A stretch of 64,000 nucleotides of DNA from Pseudanabaena sp. FACHB-2040 (GTDB lineage: Bacteria; Cyanobacteriota; Cyanobacteriia; Phormidesmidales; Phormidesmidaceae), in NCBI RefSeq assembly GCF_014696715.1, contig NZ_JACJQO010000022.1:372001-436000 (forward strand). Reading direction: 5' to 3'. A program made the position numbers and the translations under genes. Positions 1,703-42,666 of the stretch are shown piece by piece (the stretch's first letter is position 1; every line of letters begins with the position of its first letter). The notes beneath the pieces are model-generated. The model was given only the letters and a program-made list of their open reading frames with translations, was not told the origin of the DNA and ran no database searches.

Positions 1703-2878
1703 TTACTTCAACCACCCTTTTAATCGGGCAGCAACCTGAGGCCGACGCAGCTTTCGCATGGCCTTGGTTTGAATTTGGCGCACCCGCTCACGGGACAGGT
1801 TAAACATGCCCCCGACTTCCTCTAGAGTATGGGTTTCACCCGTCGCTAATCCATAGCGCAAGGTGATGATATCTTTTTCCCGTTCGGTCAACACTTCTGC
1901 CAAGACACTGGAAATCTCCTGGCGCATCATTGTCTCACTAATTTTCGACTCAGGAGACTGAGTATTGCTATCTTCGAGCAGCTCCATCAGCTCCGTGTCT
2001 TCCCCCTTCCCAACCCGATGGTTGAGCGATAGAGAGCGTCGTCGCACCTGCTGTAAACTACGCAACTGATCAACGGTGACATCGAGGGCTGCCGCCAGTT
2101 CATGTTCGGTGGGATTGCGATGCAGTTCTCGCCGCAGATCGCGGTGGGCTTTCTTTAGTTTGTTGAGCTTTTCAACAATGTGAATGGGTAGGCGAATAGT
2201 ACGAGCATCGTTGGCAATGGTGCGGGTAATGCCCTGACGGATCCACCAATAAGCATAGGTAGAGAATTTATACCCTTTATCGGGGTCAAATTTCTCGGTT
2301 GCCCGATTCAGTCCGAGGGCTCCTTCTTGAATTAGATCGAGAAAGGGCACACCCCGATTTAGATAGCGCTTAGCAATTGAAACAACCAGCCGAAGATTGG
2401 AACGAATCATCCGCCGTTTAGCTGAGCGCCCCTGGTGCAACTTCTGGCTAAACTGGGCTTCGCTGAGGTTAAGACCGGCCGCTAGCTCAGTACGACTGGG
2501 GGGCCGAGACAGCGTTTTACAAAGGTTCTCTTTCAGGTCATCAACCTGACTTAAAAAGCGCACCTGCCGGGCCAGCTCAATTTCTTCACTGGGGTTAAGC
2601 AGAGGATAGCGGGCCATCTCCTTGAAAAAGGCCCCTACCGCATCATCAGTGAGGGTTTTACTGTAGCCGGTTAATCCGATATTAGCCAGATCGTCGGAGG
2701 AAGAAAATTTCGCCAGAACTTCTTTATCTTCGTCCCAGTGGGCTGACTCCGGCCCGGTCTCATGGTCGACCTCAGCGAAGTTAGTTCCCGCTTCAGAGAA
2801 AACAACGGACAATTCAGCTTGACTGAGTTCGGGCCAGTCAATTGGACTTTCTGAGCCAGGGTTAAAAGCAGCAGCCAT
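1703..2878 (-). CDS. RNA polymerase sigma factor, group 2 (RpoD-like, possibly SigC)
   Basis: A 391-residue sigma-70 family factor that directs core RNA polymerase to promoters. Regions in order: a non-conserved acidic N-terminus (1-75), region 1.2 (about 79-105, VGAFFKEMARYPLL), region 2 including the core-binding and -10 recognition helix (about 156-224, DLIQEGALGL and YAYWWIRQGITRTI), region 3 (about 230-290) and region 4.2 helix-turn-helix (about 350-380, SRERVRQIQTKAMRKLRRP). It lacks the long region 1.1 of primary SigA, which fits a group 2, non-essential factor. The MARYPLLNP form of region 1.2 suggests SigC, but I could not verify this by comparison. A candidate promoter lies at 2916-2944. 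Confidence 0.9.
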   Translation of the reverse strand: MAAAFNPGSESPIDWPELSQAELSVVFSEAGTNFAEVDHETGPESAHWDEDKEVLAKFSSSDDLANIGLTGYSKTLTDDAVGAFFKEMARYPLLNPSEEIELARQVRFLSQVDDLKENLCKTLSRPPSRTELAAGLNLSEAQFSQKLHQGRSAKRRMIRSNLRLVVSIAKRYLNRGVPFLDLIQEGALGLNRATEKFDPDKGYKFSTYAYWWIRQGITRTIANDARTIRLPIHIVEKLNKLKKAHRDLRRELHRNPTEHELAAALDVTVDQLRSLQQVRRRSLSLNHRVGKGEDTELMELLEDSNTQSPESKISETMMRQEISSVLAEVLTEREKDIITLRYGLATGETHTLEEVGGMFNLSRERVRQIQTKAMRKLRRPQVAARLKGWLK

Positions 2879-3457
2879 AGGAATAGAGAGTTCTTATACC
2901 CAACAAGTTGTAAGACATATAACGGATCGCCTTTAATATAGCAACCCCCTTGGAGAAATTCGTGATTTCTGATTCATTTCGTGAGTGTGCAACCCACTAT
3001 ATTCGTACTTTTCTTGCTTAGTGTAAAATTTCATGGTTATTCTTGCACTCTGTAACAGTAAGCTAAAACCTTACAGCAAATCTAAGGGAAATGTTAAGAG
3101 ACGGAATGGCCAGCCGGTTGTGTCAGTAACGACTTCGACTTAGGCCGACGTGCAGCCTATAAAGATATAGCCTGCAGGGAAATAGTGGCTAGAGTTGTCC
3201 CTCGATAAATTTAAGGGATTAAGGGATTGATTTATCTCTATTAGTGATCAACAGATTAGGCATTCAGTATTGAAGAACTTAAAATTTAAGGCCTTAATCT
3301 ATCTTTTGATAGAGGCAGAATTGCTCTATCTGCAAATGAGCTGCCATCAGCAACGACTGTATTATCTTCACTCCACCTTGAAATGCAGCGGCAGTCACTG
3401 CCCTCAGTACTCCCCAAAAACCCTCTAGACTGGGAAGGATTGCGCGAGGGAGGAACC
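2879..3457. promoter_or_regulatory. Divergent intergenic region between sigma factor and priA
   Basis: About 580 bp, markedly A+T-richer than its surroundings, with no convincing gene. On the minus strand TTGCTA (2939-2944) is spaced 17 bp from TATATG (2916-2921), a plausible sigma-70 promoter placed about 40 bp upstream of the sigma factor ATG. Near 3210-3230 the hexamer-like unit AAGGGATT is repeated in tandem. Nothing else was recognised. Confidence 0.4.
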
Positions 3458-5974
3458 GTGGCCGACGGGGGAAACACCTATATAACGCCAGAGCCGAAGT
3501 GGGTTGAAGTTCTGGTAGATTGCCCCGGAGCCCAGGGCCTCTATACCTATGGCGTGCCGCCCGAGCTGGAGGTGCAGCCAGGAGACATTCTCAGCGTTCC
3601 CTTTGGTCATCAGCAGGTGGGTGCGATCGCACTACGTCTCGCCACCCAGCTTCCTGAAACCGTTGCCGCCCAGCAGATCCGTCCGGTTGAAGGCATCCTC
3701 AATCGCCGTTTCTTCTCCCCCACTTATTGGCAGCTGCTAGAGCAGGTGGCTAGCTACTACCAAACCTCGCTGATGCAGGTGATCCGCACCGCCCTGCCGC
3801 CGGGGTTGCTAGCCCGCTCTCAGCGCCGTGTACGGCTCTGCCCCAACCCAGTTCCGCTTGCCGCCGCTGCCCTCCAGCCTGCCGCTGCTACCCTGCTGGC
3901 CCACCTACATAAAGCCCCCAATGGCAACTACACCTGGCAGCACCTGCAAAAGCTTAGTAACGGCAACCGCCGCGCCCTGCAGCAGCTCATTGAACAAGGC
4001 TGGGTAGAGAGCTATTTAGCCCCGCCGCAACCGCCCCGGCCCAAGCAGCGGCAGGCTGTAACCCTGCTCAACCCCGACAATACTGCCTTGAGCCCCCGTC
4101 AGCAAGAGATTTTGGCCATTCTTAAGCGGCAGGGGGGCGATCTCTGGCTCAATGAAGCTCTGCAGATCTGCCAAACTACCAGCGCTACCCTAAAGCGGCT
4201 AGCCGCCAGCGGTCATCTGCTAATCGAGGCGAGAGAAGTGCTGCGTCGCCCTACCGATACGCCCGATCTGCAGCCCGACCAAGCCAAACCTCTGACCCCT
4301 GCTCAGCAGCAGGCCCTAGCCGCAATCAGCCAGCAAACCCACCACTGTCAGATGCTGCTCCACGGCGTTACCGGTTCAGGCAAGACTGAGGTCTACCTCC
4401 AGGCGATCGCACCCCATCTGGCCGCTGGTCAATCGGCCCTAGTGCTGGTGCCCGAAATCGGCCTCACCCCTCAGCTTACCGATCGTTTTCGCCGCCGCTT
4501 TGGTTCGCAGGTCTGCGTCTACCACAGCGCCCTCTCCGATGGCGAACGCTACGACACCTGGCGGCAAATGCTCAGCGGCCAACCCCAAGTCGTGATCGGC
4601 ACGCGCTCTGCTATTTTCGCCCCCCTGCCCCGCCTGGGCATTCTCATTCTCGATGAGGAGCACGACAGCAGTTTCAAGCAAGACAGCCCCGCCCCCTGCT
4701 ACCATGCCCGCACCGTTGCCCAGTGGCGAGCTCAACTAGAGGATTGCCCTCTGGTACTGGGTTCGGCTACGCCTTCGTTAGAGACGTGGTTGGCCTGTTT
4801 TTCCCCGAACCAGGGCACAAACCCTTGCCCCCCTATCAGCCCTCCCTCCTCTCTCATTCCTCCTCTCTCCTCCCCGCCCTCCACCCACTACCTCTCCCTA
4901 CCCCAGCGCGTCCATGCCCGACCCCACCCGCCGGTCAAGGTTGTGGACATGCGCGAGGAACTGCAGGTAGGCAACCGCAGCATTTTTAGCCATCCCCTAC
5001 AGGCGGCCCTACGCAAGATGAAAGCCGAGGGCAACCAGGGTCTGCTATTTATCCATCGTCGAGGCCACAGCAGCTTTGTCTCCTGCCGCAGTTGTGGCCA
5101 TGTGATGATGTGCCCTCACTGCGATGTGTCGCTGTCGTATCACCAGCCTAACCGAGATAGTGCGACAACTCTGCAATGTCACTACTGTGGGTATGTGCGA
5201 TCGCATCCTCGCAACTGTCCTGAATGCGCCTCGCCCTACCTAAAGCACTTTGGCAGCGGCACCCAGCGGGTAGTTAACGCCCTAGCCGAAACGTTCCCAG
5301 ACTTAACCTGCATCCGCTTCGACAGCGACACCACCCGCACTAAGGGGTCGCATCGGGCATTACTGACCCGCTTTGCCCAGGGCGGCGCAGATCTGCTGGT
5401 CGGCACCCAAATGTTGACCAAAGGCATTGACCTACCCCAGGTAACGCTGGTGGGCATTGTCGCTGCTGATGGCCTCCTATATATGAATGACTACTGGGCG
5501 AGCGAGCGAGCCTTTCAAACGCTGACTCAGGTGGCCGGCCGGGCCGGTCGGGGCGATCAGCCCGGCCAAGTGATCCTTCAGACCTACACGCCAGAGCACC
5601 CCGTGGTGGAGGCGGTGCAGCAGCAGGCATACGATACCTTTATCGAGGCAGAATGGGCCCAGCGACAGGCCCTAGCCTACCCTCCCGCCGGACGACTTGC
5701 GCTAGTTCGGCTCTCTAGCCCCGACCCAGAGGCGGTGCAGCAGGCAGCCAAAGCGGCAGCCGCACACCTGCAAAAACTAATTGCTGACTGCAAAGGATAT
5801 GAACTGCTCGGCCCGGTTCCGGCCCCAGTTTTGCGAGTGGCCCGCCGCTACCGGTGGCAGCTATTGCTAAAGTGCCAGCCCAATCAGCCCCTACCCGATC
5901 TCACATCGCTCAGAAAGCAGGCTCCAGCTCACGTCAGCTTAACCGTGGATATTGATCCGCTGAACCTGTCGTGA
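3458..5974 (+). CDS. priA: Primosomal protein N' / replication restart helicase PriA
   Basis: An ATP-dependent 3'-5' DNA helicase that recognises stalled forks and reloads the replicative helicase. The start is set at GTG 3458 because GGGAGGA lies just upstream; a longer ATG frame from 3383 has no such site. Seen from that start: an N-terminal 3'-DNA-binding domain (VEVLVDCPGAQGLYTYGVP), Walker A GVTGSGKTEVY at about 303-313, Walker B LDEEH at about 398-402, GSATPSLET, paired zinc-binding cysteines (CRSCGH..CPHCD..CHYCGY..CPEC), and helicase motifs V/VI (VGTQMLTKGID, QVAGRAGRG). About 40 residues at roughly 448-486, rich in Pro and Ser, interrupt the region between helicase lobes and look like a low-complexity insertion. 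The total length (838) exceeds the E. coli enzyme (about 730). Confidence 0.95.
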   Translation: MADGGNTYITPEPKWVEVLVDCPGAQGLYTYGVPPELEVQPGDILSVPFGHQQVGAIALRLATQLPETVAAQQIRPVEGILNRRFFSPTYWQLLEQVASYYQTSLMQVIRTALPPGLLARSQRRVRLCPNPVPLAAAALQPAAATLLAHLHKAPNGNYTWQHLQKLSNGNRRALQQLIEQGWVESYLAPPQPPRPKQRQAVTLLNPDNTALSPRQQEILAILKRQGGDLWLNEALQICQTTSATLKRLAASGHLLIEAREVLRRPTDTPDLQPDQAKPLTPAQQQALAAISQQTHHCQMLLHGVTGSGKTEVYLQAIAPHLAAGQSALVLVPEIGLTPQLTDRFRRRFGSQVCVYHSALSDGERYDTWRQMLSGQPQVVIGTRSAIFAPLPRLGILILDEEHDSSFKQDSPAPCYHARTVAQWRAQLEDCPLVLGSATPSLETWLACFSPNQGTNPCPPISPPSSLIPPLSSPPSTHYLSLPQRVHARPHPPVKVVDMREELQVGNRSIFSHPLQAALRKMKAEGNQGLLFIHRRGHSSFVSCRSCGHVMMCPHCDVSLSYHQPNRDSATTLQCHYCGYVRSHPRNCPECASPYLKHFGSGTQRVVNALAETFPDLTCIRFDSDTTRTKGSHRALLTRFAQGGADLLVGTQMLTKGIDLPQVTLVGIVAADGLLYMNDYWASERAFQTLTQVAGRAGRGDQPGQVILQTYTPEHPVVEAVQQQAYDTFIEAEWAQRQALAYPPAGRLALVRLSSPDPEAVQQAAKAAAAHLQKLIADCKGYELLGPVPAPVLRVARRYRWQLLLKCQPNQPLPDLTSLRKQAPAHVSLTVDIDPLNLS

Positions 5975-6101
5975 GGAGTTGCACGAGTTAATGCCCTCGA
6001 AGACAAGAACCGGCTTCTTGCTGGTGTTAGGGGGAAGTTGCGATCGCACAGCAAAATAGAAACAGGATCTACCCGCCCAGGGCAACTCCCCACAAAGAAG
6101 C

Positions 6102-6132
6102 CAAAAAAGAGACGTTGCTAGGCAACGTCTCT
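6102..6132 (-). terminator. Terminator-like palindrome downstream of the NTRC gene
   Basis: Perfect 11-bp arms AGAGACGTTGC (6108-6118) and GCAACGTCTCT (6122-6132) with a 3-nt loop. Read on the minus strand it is followed by six T residues, so it forms a good intrinsic terminator for the thioredoxin reductase gene. From memory, GAGACGTTGC/GCAACGTCTC palindromes recur between genes in many cyanobacterial genomes, so this may also be a copy of a dispersed repeat. Confidence 0.75.
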
Positions 6133-6168
6133 ACACTGTCTGGAGTTAGACGGTCAAATCTGCTCAAG

Positions 6169-7563
6169 TCAGGCAACCGGAACCGCGCCCAGGTTTTGCT
6201 GAACCATTTCGCGATACTGGCTCTTTTGCTTCATGCCCCGGAACTCGCCCACCATTGCCTTGTCCTTAAAGAACTGGACAGTGGGAGTGCCCGTCACGCC
6301 TGCCGACTCAGCAATATCGGGATCTTCAGTGATATCGATTTCGATGTAGTGAATCCGGCCCTCAAACTCGTCTACCACCTTGTTCAAAATCGGCTTCAGG
6401 GTATGACAGGGGCCACAGGTGGGGGAAGCGTATTTCACAATAATCAGGCGATCGCTCTCGTGGTAGAGCTTACGCAGAGCATAGCCGCCAACATGGCGAG
6501 TTGTGTCGGGGTCAAACTCGGCTACCTGCTTATACTCGGCCACCCGGCCTTCTTCTTCCGGCTTTTCAGACGCTGCGCTCTGGTGAAACTCCTGCAGCAG
6601 GTCATTGGCGACCAAATACCGCTCAGCTAGCAGAGCCGCCATACAGCCAGTGCCCGCTGCCGTAATTGCCTGACGGTATTCGTGATCCTGCACGTCTCCA
6701 GCGGCAAAAACGCCCTCAACACTGGTGGCTACTGTACCAGGCTTGACCTGGATGTAGCCCACATCATCTAGATCGAGTTGCCCCTTAAAGAGGCCAGTGT
6801 TGGGAGTGTGGCCAATGGCGTAGAACAGACCCCGCACCGGCAGATCACGTTCTTCGCCCGTTTGGGTATCGCGCAAGCGCAGTCCTTTCATCAGGTTGTC
6901 ACCATAGGCATCAACCGCTTCGGTATACCAGTGAACTGTGATTTTAGGATTTTTCAGCACTCGATCCTGCATAGCTTTGCTGGCCCGCATCTGGCCACCT
7001 CGCACCAGCAAATGCACGTGGGAACCGTACTTGGTCAGATACACAGCTTCTTCTGCTGCCGAATCGCCGCCACCAATTACGGCCAAATCTGCATTCTTGA
7101 AAATAGGAGTGGCCCCATCACAAATGGCGCAGGCCGAGATGCCCTTGTTCCAAAACTCTAGTTCTGAGGGCAGGCCCAGTCGGCGAGCCGTAGCGCCCGT
7201 GGCAATGATTAGGCTGTGGGCTTTGACCTCTCTTTCTTCTGAACGCACTACAAAGGGCCGTTGGCTCAGATCCACTGCAATGACGTCTTCCGTCACCATT
7301 TCAGTGCCCCAACGCAGGGCTTGGGCTTTCATCTGGTCCATTAAAATCGGACCGGTGATGCCATCAGGGAAACCGGGGAAATTTTCGACCTCAGTAGTGG
7401 TCATTAACTGTCCGCCGGGCAGCCCTCCTGCCTGATACCCCTCGAACATGAAAGGCTTCAGGTTAGCCCGCGCTGCGTAAATTGCGGCCGTGTAGCCCGC
7501 TGGCCCCGACCCAATAATTACGACATTTTCCACCGCTGGACTGGCCATAGCTGGACTCGCCAT
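6169..7563 (-). CDS. trxB: NADPH-thioredoxin reductase with fused thioredoxin domain (NTRC)
   Basis: A 464-residue fusion of a low-molecular-weight thioredoxin reductase and a thioredoxin. Known role of NTRC: it uses NADPH to reduce 2-Cys peroxiredoxin and other chloroplast/cyanobacterial targets. Seen: FAD-binding GSGPAG at 18-23, redox CAIC at 145-148, NADPH-binding GGGDSA at 164-169, second FAD motif [10 protein letters not shown] at about 284-293, a linker (about 320-350), then a thioredoxin domain with CGPC at 383-386 and the cis-Pro loop GTPTVQF. The N-terminus contains MASPA twice in tandem, so two ATG starts (codons 1 and 6) are possible. A clear terminator lies downstream. Cytosolic; no signal peptide. 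Confidence 0.95.
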
Positions 7564-7570
7564 AGGAAAA

Positions 7571-7882
7571 CTATGAACTCATAACGACTACGGTTAGTAT
7601 ATCGTATTTCCGGTCTGATACAGCAGTAGTTTCAGCGAACAGCAAGAGTTGTCCTGATTGGGGCATGCTGCTGGCGTAACTTATGAGCCTGACAGACATG
7701 AACTGAGCCTCAGGCGAAAGGCTGGCCCTAATCTCTAACAGCCTGGGATCAAGCTGTACGGGGAAGCGCAGAAAGCGGGAACCCTGGATAGGGGCAGGAC
7801 TATTCAGCAGCAGGAAAAAATTCGTATCGTTTGGTACCAGGAGAGTTCTGGTCTGCCAATCCTCTGCTAGCCTGAAGCCCAA
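7571..7882 (-). CDS. Possible small hypothetical protein upstream of NTRC
   Basis: An uninterrupted minus-strand frame of 103 residues ends 8 bp before the NTRC start. It opens with TTG just after an in-frame TAG, with no strong ribosome site. The sequence looks moderately protein-like ([29 protein letters not shown]) but I recognise no family. The same stretch may simply be the leader and promoter region of the NTRC gene. If not coding, 7564-7971 holds only divergent promoters. Confidence 0.3.
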
Positions 7883-7971
7883 TAATCGCTAAAGACCTGG
7901 TCACTAAGCGACCCTCCTCAAGAATTTTGTCTGGATTTTTTTGTCTGGTACGTCCCCGGTTGAGCTGCTAC

Positions 7972-10137
7972 ATGACAAACCCTCACTCTGCTTTGGTTGC
8001 CACTGTCCTCGCTGCCCTGGGGATAGGATTGGGTGGGGCGCTCAGCCCCCAATCTGCTCAGGCCCTGTCCCTGGGGCAGTTTTACCGGGAACAGCCCCAG
8101 CGCATTTCTATAGGGGCAGGCCTAGGACCTTTAGCAACTGCGATCGCACAGCTGCCCGCAGTCGTCTTGCCGCTCCAGGCAAATCTCACCGAACCTGCCG
8201 CTGACTCTACACCACCCACCTCTGCGCAGATACTGCCTGGTCTGCCGTCTCGTTCACCCCTTTCCTTGCCTCGGCCCAGGCCGGGGGGTGTTGATCCGGC
8301 AGACCAGGTCGCGCCCGCCATCATTGATCTCGATGCTCAAAACCGGCCAATCAATCCGGTGCTGTCGATGACTATGCGAGAGGAGCTAAATAATTTAATC
8401 GGTCGGTTTGAAAGCGCCCTGTTGACGGCAAACTCTTCTCAGCAGCCAACTAAGGTCAGTTTAGACCAGGCCGCTCCGGTGCTGACGGCCTCTGCCAATA
8501 CCTCACCGGTCGAGTCAGACGGCACTGTGCTGCATCCTGCTCTGCTAGAGGCGCGGCAGCTGCTCAATGAGTGGAATGATTTGATTGCCCAGGGAAAATA
8601 TGCGATCGCACGTCAGCGCTGGCAGGCCGTGCGTCAGTCACTCTGGGACAATTTACCCACCGATCGCCCCAGCGCCCAAGCCGAAATTCGCGCTATCTGG
8701 CTGGATCGGGGTACTCTGGTGCAGGCTCGCTCCCCTGAAGGGTTGGCCCAAGTCTTTGACCGCATGGCTGCCGCTGGAGTTAACACCGTCTTTGTCGAAA
8801 CCGTTAACGCGGGCTATCCCATTTATCCCAGCAGCGTTGCGCCCAACCGCAACCCCCTAATTTCAAGCTGGGATCCACTCAAGGCAGCGGTTGACCTGGG
8901 TCACGAGCGAGGCATGTCAGTTCACGCTTGGATCTGGACCTTTGCGGTTGGAAACCAGGTGCACAACCGGCTGCTCAACCTACCCCTCGACTACCCCGGC
9001 CCTCTGCTCACCCTACACCCCGACTGGGCCGGATACGACAACCTGGGCAACGTCGTGCCTCCTGGCCAAACCAAGCCCTTTCTTGACCCGGCCAACCCAG
9101 AAGTTCGCAGCTATTTAATGCGGCTGATTTCAGAGATCATCACCAACTACGAGGTCGATGGGCTACAGCTCGACTATATTCGCTACCCCTTTCAAGATCC
9201 TGGCGCAGGCCGCAGCTACGGCTACGGCACGGCAGCTCGCTGGCGGTTTCGGGCCATGACCGGTATCGATCCACTGCAGTTGGCCACCGGCCCCGGTCAA
9301 AACGCAACCGAGGCCGAGCGCCGCTTCCACCGACAGATGTGGGATCGCTGGACCGATTTTCGGGTGCAGCAGATCTCCTCCTTTGTGCAAGAAGTCTCGC
9401 TGATGGCGCGGCGGCAGCGGCCCGACTTGATTCTCTCCACCGCCGTGTTTGCCCGCCCTGAACTAGAGCGCCGCCACAAGATCCAGCAGGACTGGGGCAC
9501 CTGGGCCAGCCAAGGCTATGTAGACTGGATCGTGCTGATGAGCTACGCCGAAGACACCAATCGGTTTGCCCAGTTGGTGGAGCCCTGGCTGGTTTCCCAA
9601 ACCTTTGGCCGAGCCTTAGTGATTCCCGGCATTCGGCTACTGAACCTGCCCCAGCCCGCCGCCCTCGATCAGATCTTAGCCACCCGCGATCTACCCGCCT
9701 CTGGCTACGCTCTATTTGCCGCCACTGACCTGAACCAGAGCCTAGAAGCAATGCTCAGCCGCACCCAGGGCCAGACGGCTACCCCCTTAAGGGGCAATTC
9801 CCGGCAGGCCTCTTTTCAAATGGCCCACGCTCGCTACCAGTCTCTACAGCAGGAGTGGAATCTGCTGCTGAGCAACCGCCAGCTGTGGATGGAGCAGCCA
9901 GTGCTGACCCCTTGGGTAGAAGAGGTCAACCGCCTGGGCGAGGATCTAGAGGCGCTGGCCGCAGAGCCCTCCGCCCGCCGCTCGCGCGATGCCAAGCTTC
10001 GTTTGGAGAAAGTTCGCAGCGCCCTTAACGAGCGGGTGCTGGTACAGACGACCAACAGCAGCTACCGACTACAAACCTGGCAGCATCGGCTGACGGCTAT
10101 CGAACAGCTGCTAGCCCACGGTGAAGGGGTTCGATAG
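7972..10137 (+). CDS. Secreted GHL10-type glycoside hydrolase-like protein
   Basis: A 721-residue protein of the glycosyl-hydrolase-like 10 (DUF187, PF02638) family, presumed to act on extracellular or periplasmic polysaccharide. I choose ATG 7972 rather than the TTG 45 bp upstream because it gives a clean signal peptide: a hydrophobic stretch LVATVLAALGIGLGGAL followed by an Ala-X-Ala-type site near residue 30. A Pro-rich linker (about 60-120) and helices precede the TIM-barrel domain (about 236-560), with IRAIWLDRGTLV, VNTVFVETVNAGYPIYPS, HAWIWTFAVG, FLDPANPEVRSYL and VDGLQLDYIRYP. Acidic residues in those strands are the likely catalytic site. The C-terminus is helical. It is monocistronic by position. 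Substrate unknown. Confidence 0.85.
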   Translation: MTNPHSALVATVLAALGIGLGGALSPQSAQALSLGQFYREQPQRISIGAGLGPLATAIAQLPAVVLPLQANLTEPAADSTPPTSAQILPGLPSRSPLSLPRPRPGGVDPADQVAPAIIDLDAQNRPINPVLSMTMREELNNLIGRFESALLTANSSQQPTKVSLDQAAPVLTASANTSPVESDGTVLHPALLEARQLLNEWNDLIAQGKYAIARQRWQAVRQSLWDNLPTDRPSAQAEIRAIWLDRGTLVQARSPEGLAQVFDRMAAAGVNTVFVETVNAGYPIYPSSVAPNRNPLISSWDPLKAAVDLGHERGMSVHAWIWTFAVGNQVHNRLLNLPLDYPGPLLTLHPDWAGYDNLGNVVPPGQTKPFLDPANPEVRSYLMRLISEIITNYEVDGLQLDYIRYPFQDPGAGRSYGYGTAARWRFRAMTGIDPLQLATGPGQNATEAERRFHRQMWDRWTDFRVQQISSFVQEVSLMARRQRPDLILSTAVFARPELERRHKIQQDWGTWASQGYVDWIVLMSYAEDTNRFAQLVEPWLVSQTFGRALVIPGIRLLNLPQPAALDQILATRDLPASGYALFAATDLNQSLEAMLSRTQGQTATPLRGNSRQASFQMAHARYQSLQQEWNLLLSNRQLWMEQPVLTPWVEEVNRLGEDLEALAAEPSARRSRDAKLRLEKVRSALNERVLVQTTNSSYRLQTWQHRLTAIEQLLAHGEGVR

Positions 10138-40891: not shown

Positions 40892-41722
40892 CTAATCAAT
40901 ATTGCAAATACCAAATTTTCGTAGCAGCGTGGGTAGGTGATCATCCAAATTTTGAATGTGCTGGTCAGTCAATTCAATTAGGCGTAGCTCGTTGGCTTTG
41001 TAGAGCGCTCTTTTTTCTTCCTTGCGGGCAAGATACTTAGCTTCATTCTCATAGCCCCAGTATTCAATGTAGATACGGCCTTGGGGGATATAGAAATCAC
41101 AGTATGCGTCTTTCTCAGCTTCGACAGGCAGCTTTCGCTCATAGGCGTGAGCGAGCCCAGCAAAGTAGAGCCAGTTGTCAATTAAAACTTCAGCTTTGGA
41201 GCGAACCCAGTGCCCGTCATTAGTGCGGTACTTAGCACCCTCTTGAAACTTCTCGCGAAAGTTAGATGTCTTTTCTGGTGCTTCCGCAGAGGAATTGCCC
41301 TCAGCCAATACCTTAACGGCCTGTAGGAAAATGCGGTTATCTAGTACCTCCGGCGACCAGACAACATATTGAGTACCGCCTCGCTGGCCGTCTTTTTGTT
41401 GAGCCCCAAGAGCAAGCCCACGAGGGGTAGCCACCCATCCTTTCTCTGCTTTATCAAGCAATCCTAGCTCAGCCAGAATAGGGTTGACCTTGAGGCGAGA
41501 AAGGCCAAAGTGCTCACCCAAACGGGTTGTAGATAAGAGGTTCCCTGAAGTTTCTAGGCTGGTTTCGCCTTTGACCGTCTTTTGAAGAACTGGCTTTTCT
41601 ATAATTGGCTTGTCTATGGTGGCCTTTTCTACAGGTCGTTTAGCTTTCCAGCAGGTGTAGCAAAGGGTATACCCCGACTTTGCCACTGACTGATCACAGC
41701 CCGGAGTAGTGCAGAGGCTCAT
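40892..41722 (-). CDS. Zinc-finger / ANT-like wHTH / PD-(D/E)XK nuclease-like protein
   Basis: A 276-residue protein in three parts. Residues 4-24 hold C-x4-C-x11-C-x2-C, a likely zinc finger. Residues about 60-125 (LLSTTRLGEHFGLSRLKVNPI, GWVATPRGLALG) resemble the phage antirepressor (ANT/KilAC) DNA-binding domain. Residues about 170-270 look like a small PD-(D/E)XK nuclease of the type found in Vsr/DUF559 and helicase-linked proteins: E178 in RSKAEVLIDNWL, YERKL at 194-198, D209 in YCDFYIP, E220 in IYIEYWG, and a later K in LARKEEKRALYK. It follows two XRE genes on the same strand after 68 bp, so it may share their transcript. Function unknown; a defence, repair or mobile-element role is possible. 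Confidence 0.7.
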   Translation of the reverse strand: MSLCTTPGCDQSVAKSGYTLCYTCWKAKRPVEKATIDKPIIEKPVLQKTVKGETSLETSGNLLSTTRLGEHFGLSRLKVNPILAELGLLDKAEKGWVATPRGLALGAQQKDGQRGGTQYVVWSPEVLDNRIFLQAVKVLAEGNSSAEAPEKTSNFREKFQEGAKYRTNDGHWVRSKAEVLIDNWLYFAGLAHAYERKLPVEAEKDAYCDFYIPQGRIYIEYWGYENEAKYLARKEEKRALYKANELRLIELTDQHIQNLDDHLPTLLRKFGICNID

Positions 41723-41790
41723 GTATAAAATTGGTTTTACGCCAAGGCAAGAGTACCCAGTTAAAGGTTAAGAGTTGAGGCGTTAGTCCA

Positions 41791-42024
41791 CTATGAGACT
41801 GGCCCTAAATCATCTGGTAAATCTTCAACTGACCACTGCAGGAGTCGGCAGAGGGCCTTAACCTGTGGCAATGTTAATTTCGCCTCTTTATAACGCCCTG
41901 TCTCCCAGTTGCTCACAGTTTGGACTGAAATATCAACTGCAATAGCCACATCCCGCTGGGTCAGTCCCAGTTCTTCACGGCGGTGTTTGAGGATAGATAC
42001 TGGCGCAGCGCTTTGCTCAGGCAT
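41791..42024 (-). CDS. XRE family transcriptional regulator (second of tandem pair)
   Basis: A 77-residue single-domain helix-turn-helix protein: LKHRREELGLTQRDVAIAVDISVQTVSNWETGR (about 12-44) is a classical Cro/CI-type HTH. The C-terminus ends LCRLLQWSVEDLPDDLGPVS, closely like the end of the neighbouring regulator, so the two are paralogues. It lies 6 bp after the first XRE gene and upstream of the nuclease-like gene. It probably binds DNA as a dimer and may repress its own operon. Confidence 0.88.
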   Translation of the reverse strand: MPEQSAAPVSILKHRREELGLTQRDVAIAVDISVQTVSNWETGRYKEAKLTLPQVKALCRLLQWSVEDLPDDLGPVS

Positions 42025-42030
42025 GGGGGT

Positions 42031-42270
42031 TTACGCCTTGAGAGGGCCAAACTCATCTGGTAGCTCCTCAATCGGGATCTTCAGCTCGCGGCACAGGGCC
42101 TTGATTTGAGGAATTGTGGGTCGCGGGGTTGCTTCGCCGGTTTCCCAGCGCACATAAGTACGCAGCGGAATCCCACATCGGCGGGATAGTTCCTCTTGAG
42201 TCAGCCCTAGACGATCTCTCAATTGTTTAAGAGGGGATGCTTGCGAATTCTGAAGGCGTTTTTCCGACAT
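42031..42270 (-). CDS. XRE family transcriptional regulator (first of tandem pair)
   Basis: A 79-residue Cro/CI-type regulator: LKQLRDRLGLTQEELSRRCGIPLRTYVRWETGEA (about 14-47) and the C-terminal IKALCRELKIPIEELPDEFGPLKA. It is the first gene of a three-gene minus-strand set ending in the nuclease-like protein. A palindrome and repeated TGACAT hexamers lie about 35-60 bp upstream of its start and are the likely operator. Confidence 0.88.
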   Translation of the reverse strand: MSEKRLQNSQASPLKQLRDRLGLTQEELSRRCGIPLRTYVRWETGEATPRPTIPQIKALCRELKIPIEELPDEFGPLKA

Positions 42271-42303
42271 TTAGAACGGTTACGCCACCAAACAATGCTG
42301 ACT

Positions 42304-42328
42304 TGACATACGCCAGTCTGACATGTCA
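42304..42328. promoter_or_regulatory. Candidate XRE operator
   Basis: TGACAT occurs at 42304-42309 and 42319-42324, and the second copy is part of the perfect 10-bp palindrome TGACATGTCA (42319-42328). It lies between the XRE operon and the divergent small gene. Further palindromic sequence (TGTGCA..TGCACA, then CCAAAATTTGG) follows around 42380-42430. Assignment to the XRE proteins is inference. Confidence 0.4.
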
Positions 42329-42438
42329 CGATGGCACAAGAATTTAACGGGTTGAGATTTTTCTAACTCAGTCTCGCATTTTGTGCAGCGCAGCGCACGT
42401 TGCACACCGCTTCGTGTATCCAAAATTTGGACAATCTC

Positions 42439-42666
42439 ATGACTTATCACTCCCGGCTTCATCCCTGGTGCATTGTTCGCCTGCTGCCTCATATGCAGCG
42501 CATCACCGTCGCTCGCTTTCGCCGTCGCAATGATGCCGATGATCATGCCCGCACCCTGCGTCGTCTTATTCCTGGGGGAACTTTTGTGATTTTGTTTGAA
42601 CCTCCCAGCGATTTCTGCGCTGTTAAGCCTGCTGCGCGTGAATTGGCAAAGTCGTCAGCCCAATAG
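42439..42666 (+). CDS. Small conserved-looking basic protein of unknown function
   Basis: A 75-residue protein from ATG 42439 (MTYHSRLHPWCIVRLLPHMQ). I recall similar short cyanobacterial proteins with the pattern W-C-I-x-R-L-L-P-x-M-Q followed by TVARFRRRNDADDHARTLRRLIPGGTFVILFEP, but know no function. A longer frame starting at 42400 is less likely because the conserved part begins at MTYH. It is divergent from the XRE operon and ends 20 bp before the GGDEF-EAL gene, facing it. Confidence 0.65.
   Translation: MTYHSRLHPWCIVRLLPHMQRITVARFRRRNDADDHARTLRRLIPGGTFVILFEPPSDFCAVKPAARELAKSSAQ

Follow-up and report, generated by a model that had tools for sequence, protein, structure and literature searches.

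The window analysed here, a 64,000-nucleotide stretch of contig NZ_JACJQO010000022.1 of the cyanobacterium Pseudanabaena sp. FACHB-2040, contains at positions 40892–42666 a compact block of four genes: two small regulator genes of the XRE type (XRE1 and XRE2), a gene for a 276-residue nuclease-like protein, and a small basic gene facing the regulators. A preliminary description, made from the letters alone, took the block for a single undescribed nuclease system under its own regulators, possibly a defence module. Do these genes form one system, or do they belong to separate units that lie next to each other? We favour the latter. The block probably consists of two independent units placed end to end, a stand-alone, putatively defensive nuclease (40892–41722) and a regulatory pair of the XRE genes and the small gene (41791–42666). 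The features listed in the preliminary description were confirmed, and its interpretation was supported in part.

Linkage of the four genes

On the minus strand, the genes follow the order XRE2 (42031–42270, 79 residues), XRE1 (41791–42024, 77 residues) and nuclease (40892–41722), with gaps of 6 bp and then 68 bp, while the small gene (plus strand, 42439–42666, 75 residues, conserved over residues 1 to about 57) faces XRE2 across a divergent region of 168 bp (42271–42438). In codon alignments against relatives, third positions carry more of the differences than first or second positions in all four genes, accounting, e.g., for 45 of the 70 differences between XRE2 and its homologue at locus L060 and for 31 of the 60 between the small gene and its own-genome copy L117 (L and G numbers are our labels for loci and genomes); all four therefore evolve as proteins. 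The divergent small gene proposed earlier is thus real, and its family supports a start at ATG 42439 rather than at TTG 42400.

The separation into two units emerges from the relatives of each part. Around the nuclease, we examined 19 other loci (18 and the one in G402), excluding the partial relatives L006, L007 and L008/L028 and leaving out the near-identical Vibrio records H4 and H5. At none of the 19 does a small XRE gene adjoin the nuclease; the upstream (XRE) side is visible for more than 2 kb in 16 and is cut by a contig end in L010, L015 and L017. Six helix-turn-helix (HTH) profiles, run over the 248,661 bases of these loci, detected two HTH-like open reading frames (ORFs), neither of them adjacent to the nuclease: the one at L021 is about 1.5 kb away, that at L026 4.3 kb. 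The closest nuclease homologue found (G402, 59% identity) lies between genes of the class I tRNA synthetase and 3-hydroxyisobutyrate-dehydrogenase types, and the XRE1 homologue of that genome is on a different contig. Conversely, the window's own locus excepted, the nuclease is absent from 88 loci of the small gene, 58 loci of a second small-protein family (family 2, see below) and 88 XRE/small-gene loci; the first and third of these sets overlap, and for most of the loci the sequence seen extends about 1.5 kb to either side. The genes are therefore unlinked in relatives, the very finding that the preliminary description had named as refuting its four-gene system, and the partner of the XRE genes is instead the divergent small gene.

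The probable nuclease and its relatives

Taken earlier as part of a possibly undescribed system, the nuclease is already catalogued in PADLOC as PDC-S69, whose profile (PDLC05067) matches residues 57–272 of the 276 (E = 7.7e-74, profile positions 74–286 of 289). The PADLOC profiles PDC-S68 and HEAT_CxxC_PDDEXK match its C-terminal part; Pfam and NCBIfam scans returned nothing above cut-off, and PDB sequence searches no significant match. PDCs are one-gene candidates identified through 'guilt by embedding' and are described as mostly unvalidated (PMC12988326). Among the open-licence literature, we found no paper on PDC-S69 or PDC-S68. The window protein resembles PDC-S69 in being a single gene with the profile extending over most of its length, and differs in an N-terminal Cys4 knuckle that falls outside the match. 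The earlier suggestion of a defence module is thus upheld in so far as the nuclease belongs to a catalogued defence-candidate family, but not in the form of one four-gene system.

From its sequence and model, the protein is probably a PD-(D/E)XK nuclease that begins with a zinc knuckle and has a DNA-binding part. The Cys4 knuckle (C4, C9, C21 and C24; 41651–41713, minus strand), E178, the YERK motif (194–197), D209 and E220 all lie at the residues reported before. An AlphaFold2 model built from ten sequences places, beyond a linker, two helices (65–72 and 76–85) and a beta hairpin (strands 89–92 and 95–98) in a predicted winged-HTH region (residues 61–98; 41429–41542), and the PD-(D/E)XK order of elements at 176–268, within a predicted domain (residues 155–272; 40907–41260) that includes E178, D209 and E220. 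The alpha-beta-beta-beta-alpha-beta core is recovered in model elements 176–251. In VIA-align comparisons, the top match is I-Bth0305I (3r3p; Z 11.1, root-mean-square deviation 2.3 over 91 residues), with further matches to the putative endonuclease 3hrl (Z 10.2), Vsr (9.7) and TnsA (8.7). With I-Bth0305I and Vsr, the core fold is common over residues 175–272, but identity is only 11% and 17%, respectively, and the window protein additionally carries a winged HTH and a zinc knuckle of its own. The nuclease-like C-terminus noted earlier is supported by element order, fold match and kept acidic residues. Its antirepressor-like middle part survives as a winged HTH in the model, with weak matches to BrlR, RacA and BldC (Z 4.6–5.6), but the ANT fold was rejected, the profile PF03374 being absent from the Pfam scan and unmatched anywhere in the genome at E <= 10.

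Across 29 aligned domains, C-termini of UvrD-type helicases included, S175, E178 and D209 are kept in all, E195 in 28, E220 in 26 and K237 in 25; D209 and E220 thus provide the acidic positions of a D-x10-E-x-K motif. The C-terminal domain of UvrD-type helicases (e.g., the 986-residue protein of L020) has S175, E178, E195, D209 and E220 in common with the window protein, whose corresponding region is matched by PDC-S68 profiles; there the domain is fused to a helicase, and here it stands alone. In three cyanobacterial relatives of the alignment (L010, L011, L018), His replaces the fourth Cys of the knuckle, which L026 and L207 retain. The knuckle is seen in none of six aligned non-cyanobacterial relatives, five of which have an N-terminal KISTTALAK...-type stretch instead. 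At L014 and L020, BLAST aligns the HTH part of the window nuclease a second time to this stretch.

The nuclease is sparsely distributed, with matches at E <= 1e-5 in eight of 386 genomes of the phylum (four of the others being full-length or nearly so) and presence in three of 39 relatives, own genome counted in both. Relatives occur at nine loci of a genome-contig collection and in 22 plasmid records, seven of which cover at least 76% of the query. None was found in viral contigs, and 50,697 phage records yielded a single weak partial match; relatives of the small gene appeared neither in viral contigs nor in phage records, and a viral origin was set aside.

At 18 loci, we surveyed with PADLOC the four closest ORFs of 110 residues or more on each side of the nuclease; the results below stand among 25 of 152 matching families, and 18 of the 120 ORFs so collected were scanned individually. 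Defence-type neighbours were resolved at no fewer than five of the 18 loci. In Psychromonas hadalis (L015), about 1.5 kb separates the nuclease homologue from the RADAR genes RdrB and RdrA (2–823 and 2370–7130); at L012 an HNH restriction enzyme is nearby, and on a plasmid (L019) PDC-S02. On a Methylotuvimicrobium plasmid (L020, 4727–8633), the nuclease gene directly follows that of the 986-residue UvrD-type helicase, itself with a C-terminal nuclease-like domain, and PADLOC marked a GajB-like helicase among the neighbours. In an Oceanospirillales strain (L016, 2259–4817), the nuclease comes immediately after a phage-type integrase gene, and a cytosine methylase lies about 3.4 kb beyond, perhaps as parts of a small integrated element. 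PD-T4-6 (E = 1.5e-57) was also among the matches, its locus not traced. No paired methyltransferase, as in a restriction-modification system with a controller protein, accompanies the nuclease, whose block is flanked by Wzy_C- and GGDEF-EAL-type genes; among the neighbours resolved, the L016 methylase is the only cytosine methylase at the 18 other loci. At five cyanobacterial loci (L025, L026, L027, L010, L011), the nuclease lies near genes that we take to be chlN-like; Pfam backs the general types of two neighbours there, one of them a nitrogenase-type oxidoreductase. This retained position suggests long residence.

As a plausible mechanism, the zinc knuckle and winged HTH would anchor the protein to DNA, and the PD-(D/E)XK domain, through E178, D209 and E220, would cut it, the most likely target being incoming phage or plasmid DNA. 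With its named candidate catalytic residues, the protein offers a clean test case for a defence family of single genes that is catalogued but unproven.

The XRE genes and the small proteins that face them

Both XRE proteins match HTH_3 and HTH_31 above the curated cut-offs, as Cro/C1-type HTH proteins do (XRE1, HTH_31 5.1e-11 and HTH_3 1.5e-10; XRE2, HTH_3 5.9e-14), and they share 44–45% identity, in agreement with the earlier view of two closely spaced paralogues. The window's small protein has no Pfam match at E <= 10, and 33 members of its family gave nothing convincing against Pfam (best 0.037, for one member). Members of the family occur in 35 of 194 genomes of the phylum, own genome counted, at six places in the own genome and 11 in another, and in 14 plasmid records. 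A single-sequence model of the small protein (predicted local distance difference test score, pLDDT, 72) shows a beta-beta-alpha-beta arrangement with a C-terminal helix, for which fold searches returned only insignificant matches (best E 1.8, Z 5.0).

The small gene recurs with HTH genes. We fetched 88 loci, in three of which the profile found no gene, and merged two split genes, leaving 86 copies. A small HTH ORF lies divergently upstream within 500 bp in 21 of these, and an HTH ORF upstream on the same strand in another 12 (33 of 86 in total), as against one copy with a downstream HTH ORF, itself paired with another copy at that locus. As a control, eight cyanobacterial loci (seven nuclease loci and one in G215; 128,849 bases in all) were scanned with the same HTH seeds and yielded no HTH ORF. 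In the own genome, all six copies diverge from an HTH ORF of one of several types, within 211 bp by the called ORF starts. Tandem HTH genes occur at five small-gene loci, the window among them.

In other genomes, homologues of XRE1 and XRE2 face a different, unrelated small protein, family 2 (consensus ...REPVRILLIGSPKGVELTIKTLHRLGFAEVGEWSKPLPTPNPGEVMRILTKYI), three members of which had no Pfam match. Family 2 matches at 36 places in the own genome and is found in 26 of 39 relatives and 12 of 146 genomes of the phylum, own genome counted in both. One of the 58 fetched loci had no profile match and was dropped; in the remaining 57, five of which are the discovery loci and hence not independent, a divergent HTH ORF lies upstream within 600 bp in 21 and a same-strand one in three, two have an overlapping ORF scored as downstream, and 31 have none. 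HTH types are common to both small families.

The 168-bp divergent region contains the palindrome TGACATGTCA (42319–42328), the operator candidate of the preliminary description, present once in the window against 0.05 expected, and a second palindrome, TCCAAAATTTGGA, immediately before the small gene (42419–42431). Among the fetched XRE homologue loci, exact TGACATGTCA is limited to the window's own. A copy with one mismatch lies upstream of an 81%-identical XRE2 homologue (G393, L060), and 114 of 20,000 mononucleotide shuffles of the 170-bp stretch equalled it; no such copy precedes a 79%-identical XRE2 homologue (L077) or three XRE1 homologues. Four other intergenic regions of the own genome, taken without shuffle comparison, contain a perfect 20-mer palindrome (L117), an imperfect 24-mer (L119), a perfect 38-mer (L121, 1772–1809, between a small HTH gene and the small gene facing it) and no strong palindrome (L120); the window's own palindromes are shorter than the first three.

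These data suggest a regulatory unit in which the tandem XRE proteins would bind the palindromes of the divergent region and control two promoters, their own and the one of the small gene opposite; the small protein may in turn act as their partner or modulator, like DUF397/BldB-type proteins in Streptomyces. The nearest described analogue would indeed be the XRE-DUF397 (WhiJ/BldB-type) pairs of Streptomyces, of which many paralogous copies per genome are described (PMC10364602, PMC10294661, PMC2701414). However, the cyanobacterial small gene diverges from the HTH gene, whereas the DUF397 gene lies downstream in Streptomyces; the cyanobacterial HTH ORFs are mostly 65–110 residues long as opposed to about 300 in Streptomyces (PMC2701414); and the DUF397 profile matches neither the window protein (E <= 10) nor 33 family members (E <= 1). 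WhiJ9 is reported to bind direct repeats in an intergenic region (PMC10294661). Of the XRE-DUF397 pairs of S. coelicolor, fourteen were tested and acted as regulators, none as toxin-antitoxin (PMC10364602). Among the open-licence literature, we found no paper on cyanobacterial XRE/small-protein pairs.

More tentatively, and with some doubt, we consider it possible that the window samples an undescribed, large cyanobacterial network in which small HTH proteins form divergent pairs with proteins of 60–80 residues from at least two unrelated families, some genomes having tens of copies, with HTH types freely exchanged between the families, as a counterpart of XRE-DUF397. The window would then be one copy, with tandem XRE genes, where a PDC-S69 nuclease landed and may be controlled. 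If confirmed, the pairing would provide a function for protein families that recur in cyanobacterial genomes (at six and 36 places here) and whose scanned members lack a Pfam model, and a second, independent network of XRE and small proteins to set beside that of development and antibiotic control in Streptomyces.

Weighing the two-unit reading against its alternatives

Several observations weigh against two units, or against the roles we assign to them. The nuclease gene runs in the same direction as the XRE genes, 68 bp downstream of them, and no minus-strand terminator-like site was found between, so read-through from XRE1 into the nuclease may occur in this genome; if it does, this genome would have placed a solitary nuclease under a pre-existing regulator. 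The HTH match at L026, weak (E = 0.0057, under a looser limit) and 4.3 kb from the nuclease, lies in one of the control loci. No HTH neighbour was recognised for 53 of the 86 small-gene copies, and the four HTH seeds beyond XRE1 and XRE2 were all drawn from small-gene neighbours, making the figure of 33 of 86 partly circular; it is therefore the asymmetry between upstream and downstream sides, together with the control, that argues against chance, not the raw fraction. Two of the six own-genome copies have a stop within the aligned stretch, which splits one of them (L118). As to the nuclease, its model is of limited quality (mean pLDDT 69, predicted template modelling score 0.43), mitoribosomal proteins score almost level with nucleases in VIA-align (Z 10.6 and 10.5), and Foldseek gave nothing at E <= 0.001 (best 1.5e-3). 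Three Vibrio relatives (L021, L022, and L023 at 7770–8648) have Gln at E220 and are possibly inactive or altered copies, and W222 occupies the place of the motif lysine, for which K237 might substitute. The PD-(D/E)XK superfamily tolerates such lysine variants, so we retain the fold and drop the canonical motif. Finally, no defence neighbour was resolved at the other 13 of the 18 loci, and since five of 18 stands without a background rate, we lean towards defence but do not regard it as a result.

Could the XRE genes and the nuclease nevertheless be a single operon, with the XRE pair holding a harmful nuclease at a low level until infection and the small gene as a further part? The shared strand, the gaps of 6 and 68 bp and the lack of a minus-strand terminator-like site between the genes fit this arrangement, and small HTH regulators do control some defence systems. 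The linkage data make it distinctly improbable: no XRE gene sits beside the nuclease at the 19 other loci (three cut off upstream), no nuclease was seen at the small-gene, family-2 or XRE loci outside the window (mostly about 1.5 kb per side), and the two are on separate contigs in G402. A toxin-antitoxin role for the other unit, with the small basic protein as toxin and XRE as antitoxin, is unlikely. It would agree with a small basic protein next to an XRE gene in many copies, 14 plasmid records among them, with a former proposal of DUF397-Xre as toxin-antitoxin (PMC2701414), and with a weak, not significant likeness to CapRel and a chain of the FaRel2/ATfaRel2 complex (Z 4.3–5.0), but not with the divergent rather than operonic arrangement, the several types of HTH partner, the many copies lacking a recognised one, or the S. 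coelicolor pairs described above (PMC10364602).

The remaining alternatives concern the task of the nuclease. That it is a repair enzyme, nicking like Vsr or resolving damaged DNA, is rather unlikely but carries some weight: the fold is near Vsr, phrog_9019, a Holliday junction resolvase family, matches weakly (E = 0.0023), and the position near chlN-like genes at five cyanobacterial loci is as for a resident gene, whereas its very patchy presence, its plasmid-borne copies and the restriction, RADAR and other defence-type neighbours at several loci speak against it. A free-standing homing-type or otherwise selfish endonuclease, spreading by cutting empty sites between host genes, would account for the best fold match being the homing endonuclease I-Bth0305I, for the DNA-binding parts of its own and for a single gene between unrelated genes at most of the loci. 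Phage relatives might be expected for such an enzyme, yet viral contigs gave none and the phage records the one weak partial match, and we regard this option as quite unlikely. A stand-alone, probably defensive nuclease next to a separate regulatory pair remains our preferred interpretation.

The surroundings of the block agree with the edge of a polysaccharide locus noted earlier: a Wzy_C-type (O-antigen-ligase-type) gene lies at the left and a gene for a GGDEF-EAL protein at the other side, with homologues in 16 and 25, respectively, of 25 genomes of the family, own genome counted. No empty site for the block could be shown, the best homologues of the two flank genes being on different contigs in G396 and G403, and a site scan of the region returned neither a minus-strand terminator-like nor a promoter-like site, although cyanobacterial promoters may escape such a scan. 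Among the small-gene loci, L125 (1444–2700) has several tandem HTH genes, the first beginning 9 bp from the called small gene and three lying within 500 bp. A different HTH-like protein of about 100 residues lies upstream of the small gene, on the same strand, at L031, L032, L039, L047, L052, L132, L138, L153, L155 and L161, and the small-gene copies of these ten genomes all belong to family f7. Instances of family 2 include L061 (996–1235), and L209 with 56 further loci.

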